Assembly (NCBI RefSeq): GCF_000716335.1
Contig: NZ_KL591004.1
Location: forward strand, 12,521-45,848
From: Streptomyces sp. NRRL S-118
Lineage (GTDB): Bacteria > Actinomycetota > Actinomycetes > Streptomycetales > Streptomycetaceae
Direction of reading: 5' to 3'
Length of the DNA: 33,328 nucleotides
A model generated the notes under the pieces. It saw only the letters and a list, made by a program, of their open reading frames with translations, was not told where the DNA came from and ran no database searches. Numbering within the stretch: position 1 is the first letter of the stretch; every line of letters begins with the position of its first letter. Shown here in pieces: positions 11,871-32,100 of this stretch. The translations under genes were made by a program, and so were the position numbers.

Positions 11871-11944
11871 GGCTGGGTAGCTCAGTTGGTACGAGCGTCC
11901 GCCTGAAAAGCGGAAGGTCGCCGGTTCGACCCCGGCCCCAGCCA
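11871..11944 (+). tRNA. tRNA-Phe (GAA anticodon), integration target of the AICE
   Basis: A 74-nt cloverleaf with acceptor GGCTGGG / CCCAGCC and discriminator A. The anticodon stem TCCGC/GCGGA encloses CTGAAAA, giving GAA. Its part from 11899 onward is the left att repeat, so the 3' half was supplied by the element and the gene was left intact. Confidence 0.96.
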
Positions 11945-11947
11945 CCG
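11899..11947 (+). repeat. attL, 49-bp direct repeat inside tRNA-Phe
   Basis: Runs from the 5' strand of the anticodon stem to 3 nt past the tRNA 3' end. It is identical to 26973-27021; the bases on both sides (T versus C before, T versus C after) differ, which fixes the limits. Confidence 0.95.
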
Positions 11948-12033: not shown

Positions 12034-13236
12034 TCACGAGAGGGCGTCTCCGAGCTTCCGCAGCGCCTTCCGCTGCTCGTCCAGCGACGCGTGGGCGTAG
12101 ACCTTCATCGTCACCCCGATGTCGCTGTGGCCGACGATCTGCCGGACGATGTGCGGCGGCGCCCCGAGGTCCAGCAGCAGGGACACGGCCGAGTGCCGGA
12201 GGTCATGGAAGCGGATGTCCAGACCCAGCCGCTTGCGGAGCGGGTGCCAGCTCCGCCGGAGGTTGTCCGGCTCCAGGGGCGTCCCGATGCGGGACGTGAA
12301 CACCAACCCGTGCTCCTTCCACTCGATGCCGGCGGCGGCCCGCTCCTGTGCCTGCCGCTCCTTGTGGTTGATCAGAGCCTTGGTCACGAACGGCGGGAGC
12401 GGGACCGTACGGACGGAGGAGAGCGTCTTGGGCCGGACGAGCATCAGCTCTCCGTCGACCCGCTGTAGCGCTCGCTCCACGATCAAGGTCTCCCTGTCCA
12501 GGTCCACGGCGGCCCACCGCAGCCCCAGCAGCTCGCCCCGCCGCATCCCCATGACCAGAGCCAGGACGTAGAGCGCGTGTAGCCGGTCCTCCTCTGACTG
12601 CCGGAGGAGGAGGCGAGCGTCTGCGACGCTGAGCCCCTTCCCGGTGTCGTACGTGGGCGTGGGGACCTGGACGAGCTGGGCGACGTTCCGGACGATCAGC
12701 TCCTCGCGTACGGCGTTCTGGAGCGCGTTCCGCAGCACGGCGTGGATCGACTGCACCATGCGGCGGGAGAGCAGCGACTTGCAGCACTCCCCCGCCGCGC
12801 AGCACTCCGGCTCTCGCCGCTCCTTGTCCCACCCGTGCTTGCAGCACTGGCACTCCGAGGCGACGCCGGCGAGCCAGGTACGGACCTCGGCGGCCCGAAG
12901 AGTCCGGATCTTCTTCCGGCCCAGCCCCGGGACCAGGTGCACACGGGCCACGCTCTCGTACCCCTGGTAGGTCTTGGGCCGCCGGTGGACCTTGACGACC
13001 TTGGCCAGCCAGTACGTGAGGTAGTCCTCCAGGTTCATGTTCGTGTCGGGAACCGGGATTCCCTGGTTCTCCTGAGCCTGGAGTCCGGTGATCTTCCCGC
13101 GTACCTCATCGCGGGTCTTGCCGTAGACGGACACCCGCTTACGGATGCCGCTGGTCGTCGTCACATAGACGCGACCGTGGTACGTGCCGTCCTTCCGGAT
13201 CGTGATACTTCCTTCGCCATTGGCACGCTTTGCCAC
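12034..13236 (-). CDS. int: AICE tyrosine recombinase (integrase)
   Basis: A 400-aa phage-type integrase that recombines attP with the tRNA-Phe attB. An AP2-like arm-binding domain lies at residues 5-40 (EGSITIRKDGTYHGRVYV), a SAM-like core-binding domain at about 68-180, and the catalytic domain from about 200. Catalytic residues are visible: Arg232 (MRRGELLGLRW), Lys270, His344 and Arg347 (HDLRH), His370 (VGH) and nucleophile Tyr380. The core-binding domain contains a cysteine-rich insertion with Cys129, 131, 132, 145, 146, 151 and 152, probably metal-binding. The GTG start at 13236 overlaps the xis stop by one base (TAGTG), so the pair is translationally coupled. It stops about 90 bp from attL, the usual AICE arrangement. 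Confidence 0.97.
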   Translation of the reverse strand: MAKRANGEGSITIRKDGTYHGRVYVTTTSGIRKRVSVYGKTRDEVRGKITGLQAQENQGIPVPDTNMNLEDYLTYWLAKVVKVHRRPKTYQGYESVARVHLVPGLGRKKIRTLRAAEVRTWLAGVASECQCCKHGWDKERREPECCAAGECCKSLLSRRMVQSIHAVLRNALQNAVREELIVRNVAQLVQVPTPTYDTGKGLSVADARLLLRQSEEDRLHALYVLALVMGMRRGELLGLRWAAVDLDRETLIVERALQRVDGELMLVRPKTLSSVRTVPLPPFVTKALINHKERQAQERAAAGIEWKEHGLVFTSRIGTPLEPDNLRRSWHPLRKRLGLDIRFHDLRHSAVSLLLDLGAPPHIVRQIVGHSDIGVTMKVYAHASLDEQRKALRKLGDALS

Positions 13237-13433
13237 TACGCGGCCTCCTTGAGCTGGTTCTGCATGAACGTGTGGAGGGCGTCGGCCGGCACTCGCCGGG
13301 CTCGGCCGACCGTGAAGCTGGGGAGTTGCTTGGTGCGGATCAGGTCGTAAACCTTGAAGCGGCTGAGCTTGAGAGCCGCCATGACCTCGGGCACGGTCAC
13401 AGCAATGTGCGTGGTGGGGAGAGAGGTCGTCAT
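13236..13433 (-). CDS. xis: Excisionase / MerR-like helix-turn-helix DNA-binding protein
   Basis: A 65-aa protein with a winged helix-turn-helix of the excisionase type (about residues 13-52: VPEVMAALKLSRFKVYDLI, then an Arg-rich wing GRARRVPADAL). It should bend attL and attR DNA and direct the integrase to excision. It sits immediately upstream of int with a one-base overlap, as in pSAM2-like elements. The repeat array of 13486-13686 begins about 50 bp upstream of its start and may carry its promoter. Confidence 0.9.
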   Translation of the reverse strand: MTTSLPTTHIAVTVPEVMAALKLSRFKVYDLIRTKQLPSFTVGRARRVPADALHTFMQNQLKEAA

Positions 13434-13485: not shown

Positions 13486-13686
13486 CCGCTACATCCGCTA
13501 CGCCGCTACATCGCAGGTCAGCGGCGTGTTTTGTGTAGCGGGAAGGTTGGGTGTAGCGGCTACGCCGTTCACGGGTGGCCCGGATAGGGGCGCGCGTGGG
13601 GTGGGGGTGTAGCCGCTACACGTGTGGTTGCCGCTACACGAACAGGGGGTCTGAGCTGGGCTGTAGCGGCGTAGCGGATGTAGCGC
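13486..13686. repeat. Iteron-like array of TGTAGCGG octamers with a 24-bp inverted repeat
   Basis: Octamers CCGCTACA (13486, 13503, 13613, 13631; variant at 13495) and the complement TGTAGCGG (13534, 13552, 13662; variants at 13670 and 13679) fill the gap between the DUF3631 gene and xis and run into the end of the former. Positions 13487-13510 and 13662-13685 are perfect 24-bp inverted copies. TGTAGC-C-GCTACA at 13608-13620 forms a small palindrome. It may be the replication origin or a binding site for the regulator of xis-int. Confidence 0.85.
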
Positions 13687-14797
13687 TGTCCTGGGGCGGG
13701 GGCGGGCAGTAGCGGGACCAGGCGTCCTGGAGGTCTTTGGCGAAGTAGCCCTTGAGGATGCCGCCGGCCGTGCGGATGTTGCGGGAGGCGATGGGCTCGT
13801 TGTCGCTGGTCATGTACTCGCTGAGCATCTTGGACAGGCGCCGGGAGTCGAGCGGCTTGCCCTGGAGGTCGGCCCACGGGGCGTCTTCCAGGGCGTTGAG
13901 CCGGTCGAGGACGGCGATGGTGGGCAGCTTCTCCACCCCGACCAGTACGTGGTCGCGCAGGTCGGTCAGCAGCCGGACGCCGAGGGAGCCCTTGTCGTCG
14001 GCCTGGGATGCCCGGACCAGCTCCGCGCACGCGGCGCGGGCTCGTTTGGGCCAGTCCCCTCCGGCGGCGTCGGCGACGGCGAGGAGCGGTTCCCACACGT
14101 CGGCCGGCCGGTCTGTGACCCCGTCGGGCATGACGGGCCGCGCACCGCGGATCTGGTCCCGGATCTGGTCCGCCCACTTGGCGAGCCGGTCCCTAATGGC
14201 GTGACCTTGCTTCTCGTGGTCACCGATCCGGTAGGGCTCGACCTTCTCGTTGCGGGCCCGGCGGCGCATGCGGATAATCACGGAGCGGGTCAGGATCGTG
14301 TCCGGCAGGGAACCGAGACCGGCCACAGCGACAGCGCAGTAGGACGGGAAGCCCTGCACGGTCTGGTTGGCTCCGTCACCCACGCACCGGTACATCTTCC
14401 GTCCACGCCTGTGCCCGGCATTCAGGAAGCCCCGAAGCTGTTCGTTGTCCCCGGCCTTGGGCCCGAAGACGGTGTCGATCTCATCGAAAATGATCGTGGG
14501 CCGGTCCCCGTCCACCCCGGACACCGCACGGAACAGCGCGGAAGCGGAGGCGTCCACGGCGGCCATGCTGTTCGGTACCAGGGTCTCGATGACCTCCAGC
14601 GCACGGGACTTGCCCGACCCCGGTTCCGGGGAGAGGAACGCGATCCTCGGCGTGGAGTCGAAGGAGTCGAGCAGGTGGGCGTGTGCGTCCCACAGGGCCA
14701 CGGCGACGTAGGCGGCTTCGCGGGGGAAGACGTTGAAGCGGCGGTGGAAGGCTTCCACCTCGTTGAGCAGTGCGGCGCCGTCGATGGTGTCGGTCAT
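13634..14797 (-). CDS. DUF3631-type P-loop ATPase, putative AICE replication helicase
   Basis: A 387-aa protein. I chose the ATG at 14797 because it has GGAGG 8 nt upstream and forms an ATGA overlap with the preceding gene. Walker A is EPGSGKS (58-64) and Walker B is IIFDEID (102-108), followed by an arginine-rich sensor region (RSVIIRMRRRARNEK) and a C-terminal DUF3631-like part (KPLDSRRLSKML, then NIRTAGGILKGYF). DUF3631 proteins accompany primase-polymerases in actinobacterial elements and phages and are believed to be replicative helicases. The last codons (SATSATPLQPS) and the stop codon itself are built from the TGTAGCGG repeats, so coding and origin-like sequence overlap here. Confidence 0.88.
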   Translation of the reverse strand: MTDTIDGAALLNEVEAFHRRFNVFPREAAYVAVALWDAHAHLLDSFDSTPRIAFLSPEPGSGKSRALEVIETLVPNSMAAVDASASALFRAVSGVDGDRPTIIFDEIDTVFGPKAGDNEQLRGFLNAGHRRGRKMYRCVGDGANQTVQGFPSYCAVAVAGLGSLPDTILTRSVIIRMRRRARNEKVEPYRIGDHEKQGHAIRDRLAKWADQIRDQIRGARPVMPDGVTDRPADVWEPLLAVADAAGGDWPKRARAACAELVRASQADDKGSLGVRLLTDLRDHVLVGVEKLPTIAVLDRLNALEDAPWADLQGKPLDSRRLSKMLSEYMTSDNEPIASRNIRTAGGILKGYFAKDLQDAWSRYCPPPPQDSATSATPLQPSSDPLFV

Positions 14798-15213
14798 GCG
14801 GCGTGCCTCCCTTCGGTGAGCTGGGCGGGCAACCCGGTGCAGGCGGATCGGTGGGCGTCGTACTCGGCGACCAGCGCGGCGACGGCGTCGGGGCCGGTGG
14901 CGGTGCCGGTCAGTCCGCACCGGCAGGCGTAGGCGGCGGTGGGCAGGGCGCCGTGCCGGGTGGACCAGCGGGCGCCGTCGTAGTGGTGGCGGTAGATCGG
15001 CGGGGCGAAGATCCGGATGCCGGGGGTGTCCGGCGTCGGGTCGGCGCCCGCCCGTGCCGGGGACCGGTTCGAGCGAAGAGCAGTGACGACGCCCTTGCGG
15101 GCGGCGCCTCTCGGTTCGCCCACGGCCGCCGTGTCCACAGGCTGTGGGGCGGCGTGCGGGCCGATCGAGGCGCTGGTGAGGCAATCCAGGGCGGGGGGAG
15201 CGGGCGCCGTCAT
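14794..15213 (-). CDS. Hypothetical AICE protein with C-terminal Cys/His motif
   Basis: A 139-aa protein whose ATG at 15213 overlaps the primase-polymerase stop (ATGA) and whose stop overlaps the DUF3631 start (ATGA). It is therefore the middle gene of a tightly coupled three-gene replication unit. The N-terminal half is Ala/Pro-rich. The C-terminal 60 residues contain YACRCGLTGTATGP and AEYDAHRSACTG, a CxC...HxxxC pattern that could bind zinc. No named family recognised. Its position suggests an accessory replication or DNA-binding role. Confidence 0.75.
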   Translation of the reverse strand: MTAPAPPALDCLTSASIGPHAAPQPVDTAAVGEPRGAARKGVVTALRSNRSPARAGADPTPDTPGIRIFAPPIYRHHYDGARWSTRHGALPTAAYACRCGLTGTATGPDAVAALVAEYDAHRSACTGLPAQLTEGRHAA

Positions 15214-16142
15214 GCCGCCTCCCTGGGTGTGGCGTGGGCGATGACCCAGTCCATGGCGCTGCGGATCGTGGTGCGGCACTCGGCCGGCGGCAATCCGGTC
15301 GACTCCCCCGCCCCCTGGATTGCCTGCTCCGCCGCGGCTCGCGGGAGGTCGCCCCACGCGACGAACCGGGCGATCTTGCAGGCGCTTCGGTGCAGGGTGT
15401 TGTTGCGGCCGTTCGGCCCGCCCTGGCGCGCCGCGGCGATGACCGCGCATTCGCGTTCCAGCGCCACCTGGGCGGCCCGAGTGCCGTCCCGGAGCGGCGC
15501 CGGGGCGACCGTGGCGGGCTTGGCAGGTTGGGTGAGCAGAGCGGCCAGCCACGGGGGAAGCGGTGCGACGGGCGCGTCGTCGGTCACCTCGTAGGTGCCA
15601 TCGAGGGTGGTGCTGCCGGGGGCGACGACGTAGCCGCCCCAGGCGCGGGTGTCGATGTGTGGCCCGAGTCGGTTCACGCTGCACTTCAGTCGCACCCCGG
15701 CCGGGGCGGTGAAGTAAAGGTGCTCCCCTCCGCGGGCGGTCCGCACGCGGTAGGTGGCCGGGACGGTCTGCCCGGCGCGCTCGCAGAGCGCCGCGAAGGA
15801 AGTCGCGCCGTCAGGCGCTCCTTCTGGTTCTTCCGGCTTGACCGGGTCCAGGTCGATGACCAGCAGCCCGGCCGGGCCGGTCGCGACGCCGACGTTGTAC
15901 TGCCGCGTGGCCCATGTGGCGTGGATCAGGTTCGGGTTGGTGGTGGCGCGCTGCTCGGGGGTGCGGTGTCCTCCCGTGCAGCGCCCGGTGCCGGGGCAGG
16001 CTCGCTCCGGGTGGCCGGCGGGGCGCTTGGCGCGCGGGTGCAGGGGGATGACCGGCCAGTCGCGCTCGGCCGCAGACAGGGCGGAGGCGAGTAAGGGCAG
16101 GCAGGACAGATCGGCGGTGACGATCGGGGGAGGTTCGGGCAT
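15210..16142 (-). CDS. Bifunctional DNA primase/polymerase (prim-pol) replication initiator
   Basis: A 310-aa archaeo-eukaryotic primase-type protein. Motifs in order: VIPLHPRAKRP near the N-terminus, a Cys/His cluster CPGTGRCTGGH (Cys49, Cys55, His59), the metal-binding VIDLD (Asp97, Asp99), GGEHLYF (His141) and DTRAWGGYVVAPGS (Asp164), all typical of prim-pol domains. A C-terminal helical segment (about 225-305) follows. It should prime and perhaps extend DNA when the excised element replicates. I chose the ATG at 16142; the open frame continues upstream without a recognisable domain. A GGAG lies 9-10 nt upstream. It is coupled by ATGA to the next gene. Confidence 0.9.
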   Translation of the reverse strand: MPEPPPIVTADLSCLPLLASALSAAERDWPVIPLHPRAKRPAGHPERACPGTGRCTGGHRTPEQRATTNPNLIHATWATRQYNVGVATGPAGLLVIDLDPVKPEEPEGAPDGATSFAALCERAGQTVPATYRVRTARGGEHLYFTAPAGVRLKCSVNRLGPHIDTRAWGGYVVAPGSTTLDGTYEVTDDAPVAPLPPWLAALLTQPAKPATVAPAPLRDGTRAAQVALERECAVIAAARQGGPNGRNNTLHRSACKIARFVAWGDLPRAAAEQAIQGAGESTGLPPAECRTTIRSAMDWVIAHATPREAA

Positions 16143-16228
16143 GCTGGAGGTCTCCAGTTCTGTGAGAAGTGCTGGGAGACAAGGGCGGCCCCGGACTTTG
16201 GCGAGACGGGGGCCGCCTTTGGCGTCTA

Positions 16229-16696
16229 TCAGCGGTGGTTGATCGTGCCGGTGGCCTTGCCGAACAGGCCGGTGGCGGTGATGTTCTGCGTGACGTGCGG
16301 CGGTCCCGCCTTGCCTCCTCGTCGGCACGCGCCGAGGAGGACCGGCAGGGCGATGGCTCCGGCGGCGATGAGGGCAACGGTGGCCCACAGGGCGTGGCTC
16401 ATGGCGATCAGTCCCGGGGCTGCGTAGGAGAGCCCGACACCGGCGGCGGCGACGCCCCCGCCGATCGTCGGCGCGAGGAGAGCAGTGGTCTTGGCCCACC
16501 TCGGTACCGGCTGAGCGGCGACCGGCTGCGGGGCCAGGGCGGTGGGCTGCTGGGTGTAGGCCAGGGTCCTTACGCCGCCGGGAAGGGTCACCCAGCCGAC
16601 ACCCGGCGGGATCTCTTCCGGCAGCATCACCGGGCGCGGTAGCGGCCGCGACTGGCCGGTCAGGGTGGTGATCTCATACGGGGTCTGGGGATGCAC
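16229..16696 (-). CDS. Small AICE membrane protein with two transmembrane helices
   Basis: A 155-aa protein from the GTG at 16696, with GGGA about 8 nt upstream. The N-terminal half is Pro-rich and soluble (about 1-68). Two hydrophobic helices follow, roughly 70-96 (TTALLAPTIGGGVAAAGVGLSY) and 100-125 (ALWATVALIAAGAIALPVLLG), then a basic tail. It lies between the candidate clt repeats and the replication genes. Similar small membrane proteins in AICEs are often listed among spread (Spd) functions. This is an inference from position, not homology. Confidence 0.7.
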   Translation of the reverse strand: MHPQTPYEITTLTGQSRPLPRPVMLPEEIPPGVGWVTLPGGVRTLAYTQQPTALAPQPVAAQPVPRWAKTTALLAPTIGGGVAAAGVGLSYAAPGLIAMSHALWATVALIAAGAIALPVLLGACRRGGKAGPPHVTQNITATGLFGKATGTINHR

Positions 16697-23424: not shown

Positions 23425-24180
23425 ATGGCAGGCCAGGCTGACAATCGGGCGCCGTACGCGAAGATTGCTGCCCATTACACAGAGCTGATTTCGACCGGCG
23501 AGCTACAGCCGGGCACCCTCCTGCCGAGCATCAAGAACCTCGCGGAAGAGTGGAAGGTGAGCACGGCCACCGCCGAAAAGGCCCTGCGCAAACTGCGCAA
23601 CGAGGGGCTCGTGCGAGGCATTCACGGCATTGGTACTGAGGTTCTCGACCAGCCCACGCCAATGTCCTCGGGCTCTCAGCGGCAGGACCGGGGCCGCCGC
23701 ACCGGGTCGAGCTGGGGAGACGGCGAGAGGTCCGACTCGCATCAAGCGGCCGTAGTGCCGGCGCCCGCCGAAGTGGCGCAAGCGCTGGATATTCAGCCCG
23801 GCGCCGATGTCATCCGTCGCAGCCGCGTATATAGGGACCGGCGCGGCATCGTCGCTCACAGCACGTCGTGGATCCCGGCCCGGTACGGCAAGCTGATCCC
23901 TCAGCTAGCGAAGAGCGAGCGCCTCACGGGTGGCACGTCACTCCAGCTCATTGCCGAAGCGACCGGCCACCCGATCAGCCACCGTATCGACTCCGCGTCG
24001 GCATCCCTGCTGACACCGGAGCATGCGCGGCTGCTGGAGTTGGACCCCGACAACCTGCCCACGGAGCCAGTGGTCGTCATGACGGCGAAGTTCGTCGACA
24101 GTGAGGGCAACATCGTGGAGTACGGCGTAGACCTTGGGGGTCCCGGCCGGACGTGGCGCACAGAATCGGAGGTCTCGTGA
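23425..24180 (+). CDS. GntR/UTRA-family repressor of the AICE (KorSA-like)
   Basis: A 251-aa protein from the ATG at 23425, with GGGAG 8 nt upstream. The N-terminal GntR winged helix (about residues 8-75; LLPSIKNLAEEWKVSTATAEKALRKL) is followed by a disordered linker rich in Arg, Ser and Gly. A UTRA effector-binding domain follows (about 105-245; DVIRRSRVYRDRRGIVAHSTSWIPARY). In pSAM2 the GntR-type KorSA keeps the element integrated by repressing the activator of replication and excision; no Pra-type activator is recognisable here. The gene overlaps the next one by GTGA, and the repeats just upstream are its likely operator. The UTRA ligand is unknown. Confidence 0.92.
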   Translation: MAGQADNRAPYAKIAAHYTELISTGELQPGTLLPSIKNLAEEWKVSTATAEKALRKLRNEGLVRGIHGIGTEVLDQPTPMSSGSQRQDRGRRTGSSWGDGERSDSHQAAVVPAPAEVAQALDIQPGADVIRRSRVYRDRRGIVAHSTSWIPARYGKLIPQLAKSERLTGGTSLQLIAEATGHPISHRIDSASASLLTPEHARLLELDPDNLPTEPVVVMTAKFVDSEGNIVEYGVDLGGPGRTWRTESEVS

Positions 24181-24854
24181 CGGTCATGGATGACACGCTC
24201 ACGAATGTGCTCGAAGCACGGCTAGGCGCACACCTGGCGGCCCGCAGGGCTGGCACAATCACGCCCGAAGCCGAAGCGGAGGTGGATGCCATCTCCCGGA
24301 CCCTGACGAGACCGATGCCTCCACGCCCGCCGCTCTGCGTCCTCATGGCCGGACTCCCCGGCTCGGGCAAGACCACCCTCTCCCGTGCGCTCACCGCTCG
24401 CGGGTTCGTACGCCTGTGCCCGGACGAGGAGATGTTCCGTCGGCATGGGGTCTATGGGGTGGACTTCCCCCGTGGTGTCTTCCCAACCCTTGAGCGTCCG
24501 GTCCTTGAAGACGTGGCGGCTGACCTCAGGGAGCAGCTCAAGGCAGGGCACGACGTGGTCGTTGACCACGGCTTTTGGACTCCGGAGGACCGGGCCAAGT
24601 GGCGAGCGATAGCCATCGACGCCGACGCGACTCCTGTGCTGGTCTACCTCGAAGCCAGCCATGAAGAGCTGTGGGAGCGGATCAGTACGCGCAACGAGTT
24701 CCACGCGAACGATCCAAACTCGATCTACTTCTCGGAGAGCGACCTACAGCGGTACCGCACCCGGTTCGTCCCCCCTCAGGCTGATGAGCCGCACCTGTCG
24801 TACGACGGTGATCCTGATCCCGTGATCAACGCGCTAGATGCCTCCCGAACCTGA
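24177..24854 (+). CDS. P-loop kinase-like AAA protein (AAA_33/zeta-like)
   Basis: A 225-aa protein. I chose the GTG at 24177 because it overlaps the GntR stop (GTGA) and GGAGG lies 4 nt upstream; the ATG at 24186 is an alternative. Walker A is GLPGSGKT (59-66), followed by RLCPDEEMF and VVVDHGFWTPEDRAKW (from about 126), then LVYLEASHEELWERISTRN. These mark small predicted kinases of the AAA_33 / zeta-toxin / polynucleotide kinase group that phosphorylate a small molecule or nucleic acid end. It forms a tight two-gene unit with the repressor, so it may answer to the same signal. Substrate unknown. No separate antitoxin is seen. Confidence 0.85.
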   Translation: MTVMDDTLTNVLEARLGAHLAARRAGTITPEAEAEVDAISRTLTRPMPPRPPLCVLMAGLPGSGKTTLSRALTARGFVRLCPDEEMFRRHGVYGVDFPRGVFPTLERPVLEDVAADLREQLKAGHDVVVDHGFWTPEDRAKWRAIAIDADATPVLVYLEASHEELWERISTRNEFHANDPNSIYFSESDLQRYRTRFVPPQADEPHLSYDGDPDPVINALDASRT

Positions 24855-26972: not shown

Positions 26973-27021
26973 CCGCCTGAAAAGCGGAAGGTCGCCGGTT
27001 CGACCCCGGCCCCAGCCACCG
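26973..27021 (+). repeat. attR, 49-bp tRNA-Phe 3' remnant
   Basis: Identical to 11899-11947. It holds the anticodon arm, variable region, T-arm and 3' acceptor strand, but no 5' half, so it is not a functional tRNA. It marks the chromosomal right edge of the element. Confidence 0.95.
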
Positions 27022-29162: not shown

Positions 29163-32100
29163 ATGTCTACTTCCTTCGCCGACCTCCAGACCCTGCTGGC
29201 CGAGGTCTCGCTGCGCGACGCGCACCGGCTCGGCCGCCGTCTCGAAGGCTCCCGCCGCATCCGCAAACCCGAGGCCCGGCAGGCCGTCCTGGACGAGATC
29301 GCCGCCGAGGCGGGGAAGGCCGCCGCCCGCACCGCGGAGCGGGCTGCCCGCGTGCCGCGCGTCACGTACCCCGAGCAGCTCCCGGTCAGCCAGAAGAAGG
29401 ACGAGATCGCGGAGGCGATACGCGACCACCAGGTCGTGATCGTCGCCGGTGAGACGGGCTCCGGCAAGACCACCCAGATCCCCAAGATCTGCCTGGAGCT
29501 GGGCCGGGGCGTACGCGGCATGATCGGCCACACGCAGCCGCGGCGCATCGCCGCCCGCACGGTCGCCGAGCGGGTCGCGGAGGAGCTGAGGACGCCGCTG
29601 GGCGAGGCGGTCGGCTGGAAGGTCCGGTTCACCGACCAGGTGAACCCGGACGCCACCTTCGTCAAGCTGATGACCGACGGCATCCTGCTCGCCGAGATCC
29701 AGACGGACCGCGAGCTGCGCGCGTACGACACGATCATCATCGACGAGGCGCACGAGCGGTCGCTGAACATCGACTTCCTGCTCGGCTACCTCGCCCAGCT
29801 GCTCCCCCGGCGCCCCGACCTCAAGGTCGTGATCACCTCCGCGACCATCGATCCGGAGCGCTTCTCCCGCCATTTCGGCGACGCGCCCATCGTCGAGGTC
29901 TCGGGCCGTACGTATCCGGTCGAGGTGCGCTACCGCCCGCTCCTGGAGGAGGACTCCGAGGAGTCCGACCGCGACCAGATCACCGCCATCTGCGACGCCG
30001 TGGACGAACTCCAGTCGGAGGGCCCCGGCGACATCCTGGTCTTCCTCTCGGGTGAGCGCGAGATCCGCGACACGGCGGACGCCCTGGTCAAGAAGAAGCT
30101 CCGCAACACCGAGGTCCTCCCCCTCTACGCGCGCCTCTCGCACGCCGAGCAGCACCGCGTCTTCCAGCCCCACTCCGGGCGCCGCATCGTCCTCGCGACG
30201 AACGTCGCCGAGACGTCCCTGACGGTCCCCGGCATCAAGTACGTCATCGATCCGGGCACCGCCCGCATCTCCCGCTACAGCCACCGCACCAAGGTCCAGC
30301 GCCTGCCGATCGAGCCGGTCAGCCAGGCCAGCGCCAACCAGCGCAAGGGCCGCTGCGGCCGTACGTCGGACGGCATCTGCATCCGCCTGTACTCGGAGGA
30401 CGACTTCCTCGCCCGACCCGAGTTCACGGACGCCGAGATCCTGCGGACGAACCTGGCGTCGGTCATCCTCCAGATGACGGCGGCCGGGCTCGGCGACATC
30501 GAGAAGTTCCCCTTCATCGACCCGCCGGACCACCGCAACATCCGCGACGGCGTGCAGCTCCTCCAGGAACTCGGCGCGATCGACCCGGCGCAGAAGGACC
30601 CGAAGAAGCGCCTCACGCAGGAGGGCCGCAAGCTGGCCCAGCTGCCGGTGGACCCGCGGCTGGCCCGCATGGTGCTGGAGGCCGACAAGAACGGCTGCGT
30701 CCGCGAGGTCATGGTGATCGCGGCCGCGCTGTCCATCCAGGACCCGCGCGAGCGGCCGGCGGAGAAGCAGGCGCAGGCCGACCAGCAGCACGCCCGGTTC
30801 AAGGACGAGACGTCCGACTTCCTGGCGTTCCTGAACCTCTGGCGCTACATCCGCGAACAGCAGAAGGCGCTGTCCTCCTCGGCCTTCCGCCGGATGTGCA
30901 AGTCCGAGTACCTCAACTACCTGCGCATCCGCGAATGGCAGGACATCTATACGCAGTTGCGTACGGTCGCCAAGCAGATGGGCCTCCACCTCGAGGAGCC
31001 CTCGGCGGAACTGTCCGCCCCGGACGACCGCATCCACGTCTCTCTGCTCGCCGGGCTCCTCTCCCACATCGGGATGAAGGACGTCAAGGAGGGCGCGAAG
31101 AACGAGTACCTGGGCGCCCGCAGCGCCAAGTTCGCCGTCTTCCCCGGGTCGGCGCTGTTCAAGAAACCGCCGCGTTTCATCATGTCCGCCGAGCTGGTGG
31201 AGACCTCCCGCCTGTGGGCGCGGGTCAACGCGAGGATCGAACCCGAGTGGATCGAGCCGCTGGCCGGGCACCTGCTGAAGCGCACCTACTCCGAACCGCA
31301 CTGGGAGAAGGACCAGGCGGCGGTCATGGCGTACGAGAAGGTCACGCTGTACGGCGTGCCGATCGTCGCCCAGCGGAAGGTGAACTACGGGCGCATCGAC
31401 CCCGAGGTCTCGCGCGAGCTGTTCATCCGGCACGCCCTGGTGGAGGGCGACTGGCGCACGCACCACAAGTTCTTCGCGGACAACCGCAAGCTGCTGACCG
31501 AGGTCGAGGAGCTGGAGCACCGGGCCCGGCGCCGCGACATCCTCGTGGACGACGAGACGCTCTTCGACTTCTACGACCAGCGGGTGCCCGAACACGTCGT
31601 CTCGGGCGCGCACTTCGACTCGTGGTGGAAGCACAAGCGGCGCGAGGCGCCCGACCTGCTCGACTTCGAGCGCGAGATGCTGATCAACGAGAAGGCGGGC
31701 GCGGTCACCAAGGCCGACTACCCGGACTCGTGGCGGCAGGGCGCCCTGAAGTTCCGGGTCACCTACCAGTTCGAGCCGGGCGCGGACGCGGACGGCGTCA
31801 CCGTGCACATCCCGCTCCAGGTGCTGAACCAGGTCACCGACGAGGGCTTCGACTGGCAGATCCCGGGCCTGCGCGAGGAGGTCGTCACCGAGCTGATCCG
31901 CTCGCTGCCCAAGCCGATCCGCCGCAACTACGTCCCGGCGCCGAACTTCGCGCGGCGGTTCCTGGCCCAGGCGGTCCCCCTGCAGGAGCCGCTCGACGTG
32001 ACGCTCGCCCGCGAGCTGCAGCGGATGGTCGGCGTCCCGGTCGACGCCGGCGACTTCGACTGGTCGAAGGTCCCCGACCACCTGCGCATCACCTTCCGGA

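Follow-up and report, generated by a model that had tools for sequence, protein, structure and literature searches.

Streptomyces sp. NRRL S-118 carries, within a 33,328-nt stretch of contig NZ_KL591004.1 (hereafter referred to as the window), an actinomycete integrative and conjugative element (AICE) in which an array of octamers in both orientations is located between the 3' part of the gene for a DUF3631 protein, also named RepAM, and the xis gene. The question raised by this locus is what such an array does for the element. Based on comparison with related loci, it very probably represents the replication origin of this 15.1-kb element, which also encodes a primase-polymerase (prim-pol), and its octamers would act as iterons bound by a putative winged helix at the C-terminus of the DUF3631 protein. 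The position of the arrays, the concerted change of their octamers, the tracking of DUF3631 and the relation to residue 342 were obtained by comparison, and the protein fold by prediction; we infer binding, opening, priming and direction.

Layout of the octamer array

Eleven octamers of the TGTAGCGG type were counted between 13486 and 13686, and the cluster of about ten such repeats in both orientations noticed in a preliminary description of this DNA is real. Seven copies are exact, four on the minus strand (13486-13493, 13503-13510, 13613-13620 and 13631-13638, the latter spanning the DUF3631 stop codon) and three on the plus strand (13534-13541, 13552-13559 and 13662-13669), and four copies carry one mismatch (13495-13502 on the minus strand; 13608-13615, which overlaps the octamer at 13613-13620, 13670-13677 and 13679-13686 on the plus strand). 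An extra variant is located at 13708, and a single exact copy was found elsewhere in the window, at 30272. Coordinates confirmed the perfect 24-bp inverted repeat reported earlier, with arms at 13487-13510 and 13662-13685 separated by 151 bp; the region 13487-13685 as a whole forms a single imperfect inverted repeat with 80-nt arms that are 76% complementary. The density of repeats was likewise said to exceed chance, and this holds: seven exact copies occur within 230 bp of the element, compared to at most one in 300 dinucleotide shuffles of the element, and the highest copy number of any 8-mer is seven, compared to two to four in ten shuffles. No other copy of the 24-mer exists in the 7.9-Mb genome, which rules out a genome-wide repeat family.

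Within the array, two terminal blocks of three tandem octamers each hold the arms of the inverted repeat, namely the block on the xis side (13486-13510, minus strand) and the block on the rep side within the DUF3631 gene (13662-13686, plus strand). Next to the former lie a near-constant box, CTGACCTGC on the minus strand (GCAGGTCAG on the plus strand; 13513-13521), and a short A/T tract (13526-13535, with TTTT at 13529-13532) between this box and the inward octamer. A second, inverted box, CTGAGCTG (13651-13658, plus strand), with one mismatch to CTGACCTG, is located within the DUF3631 coding region. The placement of the array between rep and xis was described correctly insofar as it lies upstream of xis, with a gap of 52 bp between the array end and the xis start codon; it is, however, not purely intergenic and overlaps the final 53 bp of the DUF3631 open reading frame (ORF; 13634-13686, stop at 13634).

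A cruciform or a hairpin in single-stranded DNA or mRNA, e.g., a terminator or single-strand origin, might alternatively be the functional feature. The RNA fold of the array reached a z of -13.2, and the authors of the work on plasmid pWTY27 suggest that its initiator RepA may recognise a stem-loop (PMC3583192). With octamers and boxes fixed and the remainder shuffled, the residual z drops to -3.6 in the window, and the strong fold is therefore largely a by-product of the inverted sites. Moreover, this residual value ranges from +0.5 to -5.0 across 12 relatives, the terminal blocks are built as tandem repeats, and in most copies the first base varies together with a protein residue. A hairpin as the functional feature is thus regarded as very improbable.

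Octamer class and the DUF3631 gene

Relatives were collected by a scan that gave 340 loci encoding a DUF3631 relative, of which the best 80 were kept, and the sample therefore leans to close relatives. Adding the window itself, two plasmids and another 11 genome loci gave a set of 94 loci, from which the duplicate fetches L108, L109 and L115 were dropped and in which L061 and L062 are identical over DUF3631 residues 1-300. An array was found at the 3' end of the DUF3631 gene in 94/94 of these same-clade loci, i.e., at the position where the preliminary description had suggested searching for the octamer; relatives that share the rep genes but lack the repeats, which it would have taken as contrary evidence, did not occur in this set. 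Multiple short repeats beside the initiator gene, as they characterize iteron origins, are accordingly present in all loci of the set.

The arrays fall into three octamer classes, TGTAGCGG (44 loci), GGTAGCGG (44 loci) and TGTGGCGG (six loci, among which L025 ties with CGTGGCGG), and one class predominates among the copies inside each locus. All three classes have a consensus in which an A-rich tract and the box CTGACCTGC are followed by three octamers at a spacing of 8-9 bp; in 90/94 loci, two or more octamer cores lie within the 34 nt behind a box (exceptions: L015, L020, L065, L078). Four other loci (L126, L135, L141, L144) show the box-plus-octamer unit reversed relative to DUF3631, with the array still at the 3' end of the gene.

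Class changes were counted on gene trees and compared with 200 shuffles. For the 47 loci possessing all four genes, DUF3631 required six changes (shuffled mean 16.4, minimum 11), prim-pol 14 (16.1, 12), xis 11 (16.2, 12) and int 13 (15.8, 11). Using all available loci, the corresponding values were seven for DUF3631 (94 loci; mean 35.4, minimum 28), 25 for prim-pol (86 loci; 32.7, 25), 12 for xis (51 loci; 17.2, 13) and 21 for int (76 loci; 29.1, 23). The octamer class tracks DUF3631 strongly and far better than prim-pol, xis or int, and the counts for prim-pol, 14 and 25 in the two sets, rule it out as reader of the octamers.

Identity scans of ten locus pairs further revealed that the octamer array and the DUF3631 gene are exchangeable as one cassette. 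L029, a TGTGGCGG locus, shares 84-96% identity with the window on the prim-pol side and beyond +200, compared to only 42-81% in the interval between about -1100 and +200 relative to the DUF3631 stop. L007 and the window have octamer and cassette in common (74-92%), with far less similar flanks, and L019 and L026 are alike in xis/int (82-93%) and differ in their arrays.

At the level of single residues, position 342 of the DUF3631 protein (Arg342 codon in the window: 13772-13774, minus strand) covaries with the first base of the octamer: arginine was found in 50/50 loci with T as first base and lysine in 44/44 loci with G, and the second-best alignment column showed three exceptions. On a tree of DUF3631 residues 1-300 alone, eight switches were counted (shuffled minimum 25). 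Only two to four independent switch pairs are located on well-supported branches, all in the same direction, and since a sign test on these cannot reach 0.05, a hold-out set was made. It was drawn from 55 other loci obtained via a DNA pattern (30, 23 new ones, and the two viral loci, of 24, with a DUF3631 match), of which 30 were dropped (four without a DUF3631 hit, one not covered, 24 with at least 97% identity to training loci and one with at least 97% identity to a kept locus). All 25 kept loci follow the rule (14 Arg/T, 11 Lys/G), under search patterns that allowed only G or T as first base, and no hold-out hit with both parts covered breaks it. In the model of the C-terminal domain (pLDDT 88, pTM 0.80), residue 342 belongs to a winged helix, where it is placed on the first strand of the wing. 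These sequence comparisons suggest it as the evident specificity residue for octamer base 1, and a single residue-base pair makes origin specificity directly testable.

DUF3631 genes of sister clades at about 40% identity (18 loci) are accompanied by other repeat words, which lie behind the stop codon in 10/18 loci and at the 5' part of the gene in 8/18. Repeats behind the stop are of the TTGCCGTC type (L086-L089, L092) or the ACGAGTC type (L090, L094, L097, L101, L102), both words having been chosen by eye from 7-mers repeated three to seven times, without a shuffle test. In the other eight loci (L085, L091, L093, L095, L096, L098, L099 and L100), CGGTCC(CC/GG)-type arrays with up to 6-12 copies per 300 bp lie within the 5' part of the gene or immediately ahead of it. 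No prim-pol was detected by tblastn in the 18 sister-clade loci, ten of which hold just about 0.5-2.1 kb upstream of the gene, and no PF09250 match within 100 kb on the same contig was listed for 17/18 of these DUF3631 places (13 genomes; coordinates compared by eye, some contigs being 20-43 kb); L087 has a truncated PF09250 match about 10 kb away. Nonomuraea, which belongs to a different order, has an AGCCGTA array behind prim-pol and DUF3631, and after it an ORF that resembles HTH/xis genes by eye. No match to the DUF3631 query was obtained in L117 and L120-L123.

The preliminary description had offered, besides an iteron origin for a prim-pol/DUF3631 replicon, an operator linking replication to excision. 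In favour of an operator or accessory site for Xis/Int, the array ends close to the xis start codon, xis shows some association with class (11 changes on the four-gene set), and L100, a locus with a 5'-part array, has an xis-like HTH_17 gene just upstream of DUF3631. However, close xis/int relatives occur in all classes (L019 and L027 with TA, L015 and L026 with GA, L029 with TG), DUF2637 follows the array in L086, L090 and L101, and class is tracked much better by DUF3631. On these three observations, an xis operator is rejected as primary role, and control of excision by Xis/Int is highly unlikely as an explanation of the array, for which a secondary regulatory effect is possible. The iteron-origin proposal, in contrast, gains support from the arrays in 94/94 loci, DUF3631 tracking, cassette exchange and residue covariation, and also from arrays at DUF3631 genes without adjacent prim-pol and from the replacement of xis by DUF2637 in three loci tested.

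A candidate initiator and the origin reading

RepAM was predicted to be a rolling-circle initiator by Ghinet et al. 2011, after te Poele et al. (PMC3218068), and the array would then mark the double-strand origin of a nicking protein. Apart from this published prediction, an HAH motif, readable as HUH, occurs in 42/58 aligned DUF3631 proteins and may have prompted the rolling-circle (HUH) assignment; furthermore, CTTGAT was found in 56/94 array zones, and the strict Walker A motif GxxxxGK[ST] in 0/58 proteins. Against this, HAH is absent in 16/58 proteins and hence not conserved throughout the family, and in the window protein (residues 39-41; window 14675-14683) it sits at the end of the helix before the P-loop in the model. 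G.GK[ST] is present in 49/58 proteins and a Walker B-like motif in 57/58. CTTGAT is absent from the window, and CTTGATA, the nick-site core of pC194-like replicons, was found in 0/94 zones. The top fold matches of the DUF3631 model (Foldseek) were MCM and other AAA+ replication proteins, and the model combines an AAA+ helicase fold with a C-terminal DNA-binding domain, as expected for an initiator helicase. Cch and SaPI structures were absent among the 50 fold matches listed, and the search for sequence relatives of DUF3631 in the PDB gave none that was convincing. A rolling-circle origin therefore has very little probability. Judged from the model, the DUF3631 protein is proposed to be an MCM-like AAA+ initiator helicase, which would recast RepAM from a predicted rolling-circle nickase and opposes the published prediction. 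With a DUF3631 match in 217/392 Streptomyces genomes searched, the array would constitute a sequence-defined candidate origin for a widespread family.

In the proposed origin, the two triple-octamer blocks, which face outward and have one inner CTGACCTG-type box each, would form a dyad for two initiator complexes, which the symmetric layout of blocks and inner boxes suggests to be facing each other. The DNA may open near the A/T tract and the box, the tract at 13526-13535 being a possible melting point, and the DUF3631 helicase would be loaded. With priming by the neighbouring prim-pol or a host primase, the excised circle would then replicate in theta mode, probably in both directions.

Several results weigh against this interpretation. 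The only candidate for an A/T-rich opening region at the array is a very short A-rich tract, and no DnaA box with up to one mismatch was found out to 1.4 kb from the array; a DnaA box is not universal among iteron-type theta origins. Co-inheritance with DUF3631 would also result from linkage alone, as the array borders on the C-terminal coding region; the weak association of class with xis, int and, in the larger set, prim-pol belongs here as well, and linkage would also explain it. The small number of independent switches at residue 342, the HAH motif, the missing strict Walker A motif and the frequency of CTTGAT have to be added, together with low Foldseek TM-scores to MCM (0.31-0.41). Finally, arrays without DUF3631 nearby were found in two genomes (G081, G189) and two viral contigs (L155, L165), the 8-mer scan gave no array in L118 (29% identity), no box was present in the region tested of L085, L091 and L095, and the Nonomuraea array has no exact box.

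Two relatives, L083 and L084, were deposited as complete circular plasmid records of 14,273 and 13,544 bp. Both contain int, an HTH gene in the place of xis, prim-pol, DUF3631, TraB or FtsK, and the array, and because these complete circular records hold int and array, AICEs of this type appear to exist as free circles. They bear on the idea that the array, although bound by DUF3631, mainly serves as an operator for autoregulation or as a site of copy control or incompatibility, and that the true origin lies elsewhere: a scan of the window octamer alone showed clusters in the two circles only here. Iterons commonly serve as both origin and regulatory site, and the array lies within a presumed rep-xis-int operon, which agrees with such a role. 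However, arrays are located at either gene end in different clades, and box and A/T tract appear origin-like. A mainly regulatory site is considered unlikely, and the origin reading is retained.

The origin is most likely of a known kind, i.e., an initiator helicase with iterons, to which the DUF3631 family is newly connected as far as the literature was searched. A search of the open literature by title or abstract, which did not cover te Poele 2008 and the pMEA300 replicon paper, found no paper describing this origin. By analogy, the nearest experimental support comes from the Streptomyces plasmid pWTY27 (repAB and iteron), for which binding of RepA to a long inverted repeat (EMSA, footprint) and bidirectional replication of the locus are reported (PMC3583192). 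In this plasmid, a prim-pol gene lies beside the initiator gene and an adjacent 300-bp array contains one word both ways, GTGGGAAC / TTCCCAC, which differs from the word of the window. The plasmid L244, carrying the GTGGGAA word, encodes a 527-aa initiator without Pfam match and without significant similarity to DUF3631. SaPI Rep and SCCmec Cch/Cch2 are described as modules of an initiator helicase with a C-terminal DNA-binding domain, iterons directly 3' of the gene (a putative origin in SCCmec) and primase or primase-polymerase genes, the region preceding the recombinase gene in SCCmec (PMC7581432). These systems differ from the window in having a DUF927 or D5-type protein instead of DUF3631 (by Pfam), and in the window family the word covaries with a single residue of the wing and a near-constant box is present in addition. 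Placement of the origin downstream of the gene agrees with the window clade, whereas 8/18 sister-clade loci have the array at the 5' part. The iteron theta plasmid pFP11 (NC_006911.1, L240) resembles the window in the order prim-pol, initiator and AGGGACGC repeats with an exact CTGACCTGC box; its initiator is not DUF3631, and no integrase is annotated in the 10.8-kb stretch examined. RepAM AICEs of the pMEA300 type share the DUF3631 family with the window, but are described with a predicted rolling-circle initiator, and the word 'iteron' occurs 0 times in the main text (PMC3218068).

The box CTGACC[TA]GC, in either orientation, was enriched in the array zones of the 94 loci (2.74/kb vs. 0.127/kb elsewhere). 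In the sister clades, a search tolerating one-letter variants at three positions found it in 10/10 post-stop and 4/8 5'-part arrays (expected 0.01-0.07 each), and in L096 it is located just outside the region tested. Both boxes are exact and inverted in L128/L150, L137, L139 and L153. Besides three DUF3631 records, seven plasmids were hand-picked from 40 listed among 395 matching records. The box is present downstream of other initiators, namely those of pFP11 and pSTS2 (82% related Reps) and the D5-type initiator of L242; L244 carries two boxes, inverted, downstream of its initiator, and pFP4 (L246, DUF927 initiator, with a short weak match to the pFP11 Rep) has a variant with A. The downstream region contains no box in L245, where the initiator is related to the pFP11 Rep at 39%, or in L247, which has no helicase gene annotated next to prim-pol. 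Across the six plasmids with an initiator gene, seven boxes occur in 4.2 kb downstream compared to eight in 53.6 kb elsewhere. The element's own prim-pol is an unlikely reader of the box, as no PF09250 match was listed near 17/18 sister-clade places and yet 14 of the 18 arrays there hold a box. Since sister-clade DUF3631 genes lack an adjacent prim-pol, the box is probably read by a host factor or by the initiators themselves, and it may mark a factor common to replicons with different initiators.

Rep-less arrays and the surrounding element

A 19-base box-plus-octamer pattern was found at 36 places in 26/150 Streptomyces genomes, compared to one place for the reversed control pattern. Among 30 pattern loci fetched, 27 have a DUF3631 match beside the array, and the exceptions are L131 (single octamer) and L129/L151 (one locus, in G081). 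One of the 27, L124 / L119 (G013), gave a match only to a C-terminal DUF3631 fragment (query residues 295-365) and has kept eight octamers and the box. A second rep-less locus was obtained from G189 by a wider search. No DUF3631 match was present in the 18 kb examined around the islands of G081 (L186:8062-8983) and G189 (L239:8063-10346). In both, a GGTAGCGG array and a TGTAGCGG array lie in tandem, and the tandem is present twice as inverted copies, with arms of 99.5% identity over 187 bp and 96.7% over 424 bp. In G081, a prim-pol-like match of 39 residues has been kept along with an integrase-like match at a distance of 4 kb, and an ORF at the island looks GntR-like by eye. Candidate interpretations for these islands are satellite, decoy or remnant.

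Viral stretches yielded array and DUF3631 in 2/24 cases, and 20/24 pattern hits, with only one to three octamers and no DUF3631, were taken as chance. The 4-kb viral contigs L155 and L165 contain a box and six to seven octamers without DUF3631, near an ORF that resembles a terminase large subunit by eye.

A broader idea can be put forward tentatively, although it is rather doubtful: actinobacterial prim-pol-type replicons might share a two-part origin code, in which iterons would serve interchangeable initiators (DUF3631, pFP11-type, D5, DUF927, pWTY27-like) and the box CTGACC(T/A)GC would serve a common, probably host, factor (primase or loader). Residue 342 would partly set the repeat (Arg for T, Lys for G), and the rep-less G081/G189 islands, with two octamer classes in inverted pairs, might exploit the code in trans as satellites or decoys against elements.

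The AICE itself is delimited by two exact copies of a 49-bp attachment repeat, one at the 3' end of tRNA-Phe (11899-11947) and the other at 26973-27021, which define a length of about 15.1 kb. On the minus strand, the gene order is prim-pol (15210-16499; PF09250, E 1e-43), a 139-aa ORF (14794-15213) with ATGA overlaps to both neighbours in the rep operon, DUF3631 (13634-14797; 387 aa, PF12307, E 2.7e-63; predicted AAA+ domain followed by the C-terminal winged helix), xis (13236-13433; HTH_17 / excise) and int (12034-13236; tyrosine recombinase). A hypothetical protein is encoded in a place similar to that of the 139-aa ORF in plasmid L083. The DUF3631 protein probably starts at 14797 and not at the upstream TTG, since the ATG at 14797 aligns with the first residue of an annotated homologue on a plasmid, and the 516-aa TTG-start ORF is regarded as an over-extension. 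Of the AICE modules, int, xis, rep genes and the 49-bp repeats at tRNA-Phe were found in the window; its likely tra region contains two large ORFs without a Pfam match, and TraB or FtsK genes are present in L083 and L084.

In the Nonomuraea element, a second 8-bp cluster, GGTGCCAC (L241:1750-2150), with seven copies in 300 bp, is located 4.2 kb upstream and could be a transfer (clt-like) site. The record NZ_LT559118.1 is filed as plasmid I of Nonomuraea gerenzanensis, and its size of 11.85 Mb suggests a chromosome. At the other end of the window element, GntR, AAA_33/zeta-like kinase and Hypoth_Ymh genes are encoded on the plus strand, where the AAA_33/zeta-toxin-like kinase (24153-24854) is situated beside a GntR-UTRA regulator (23425-24180).
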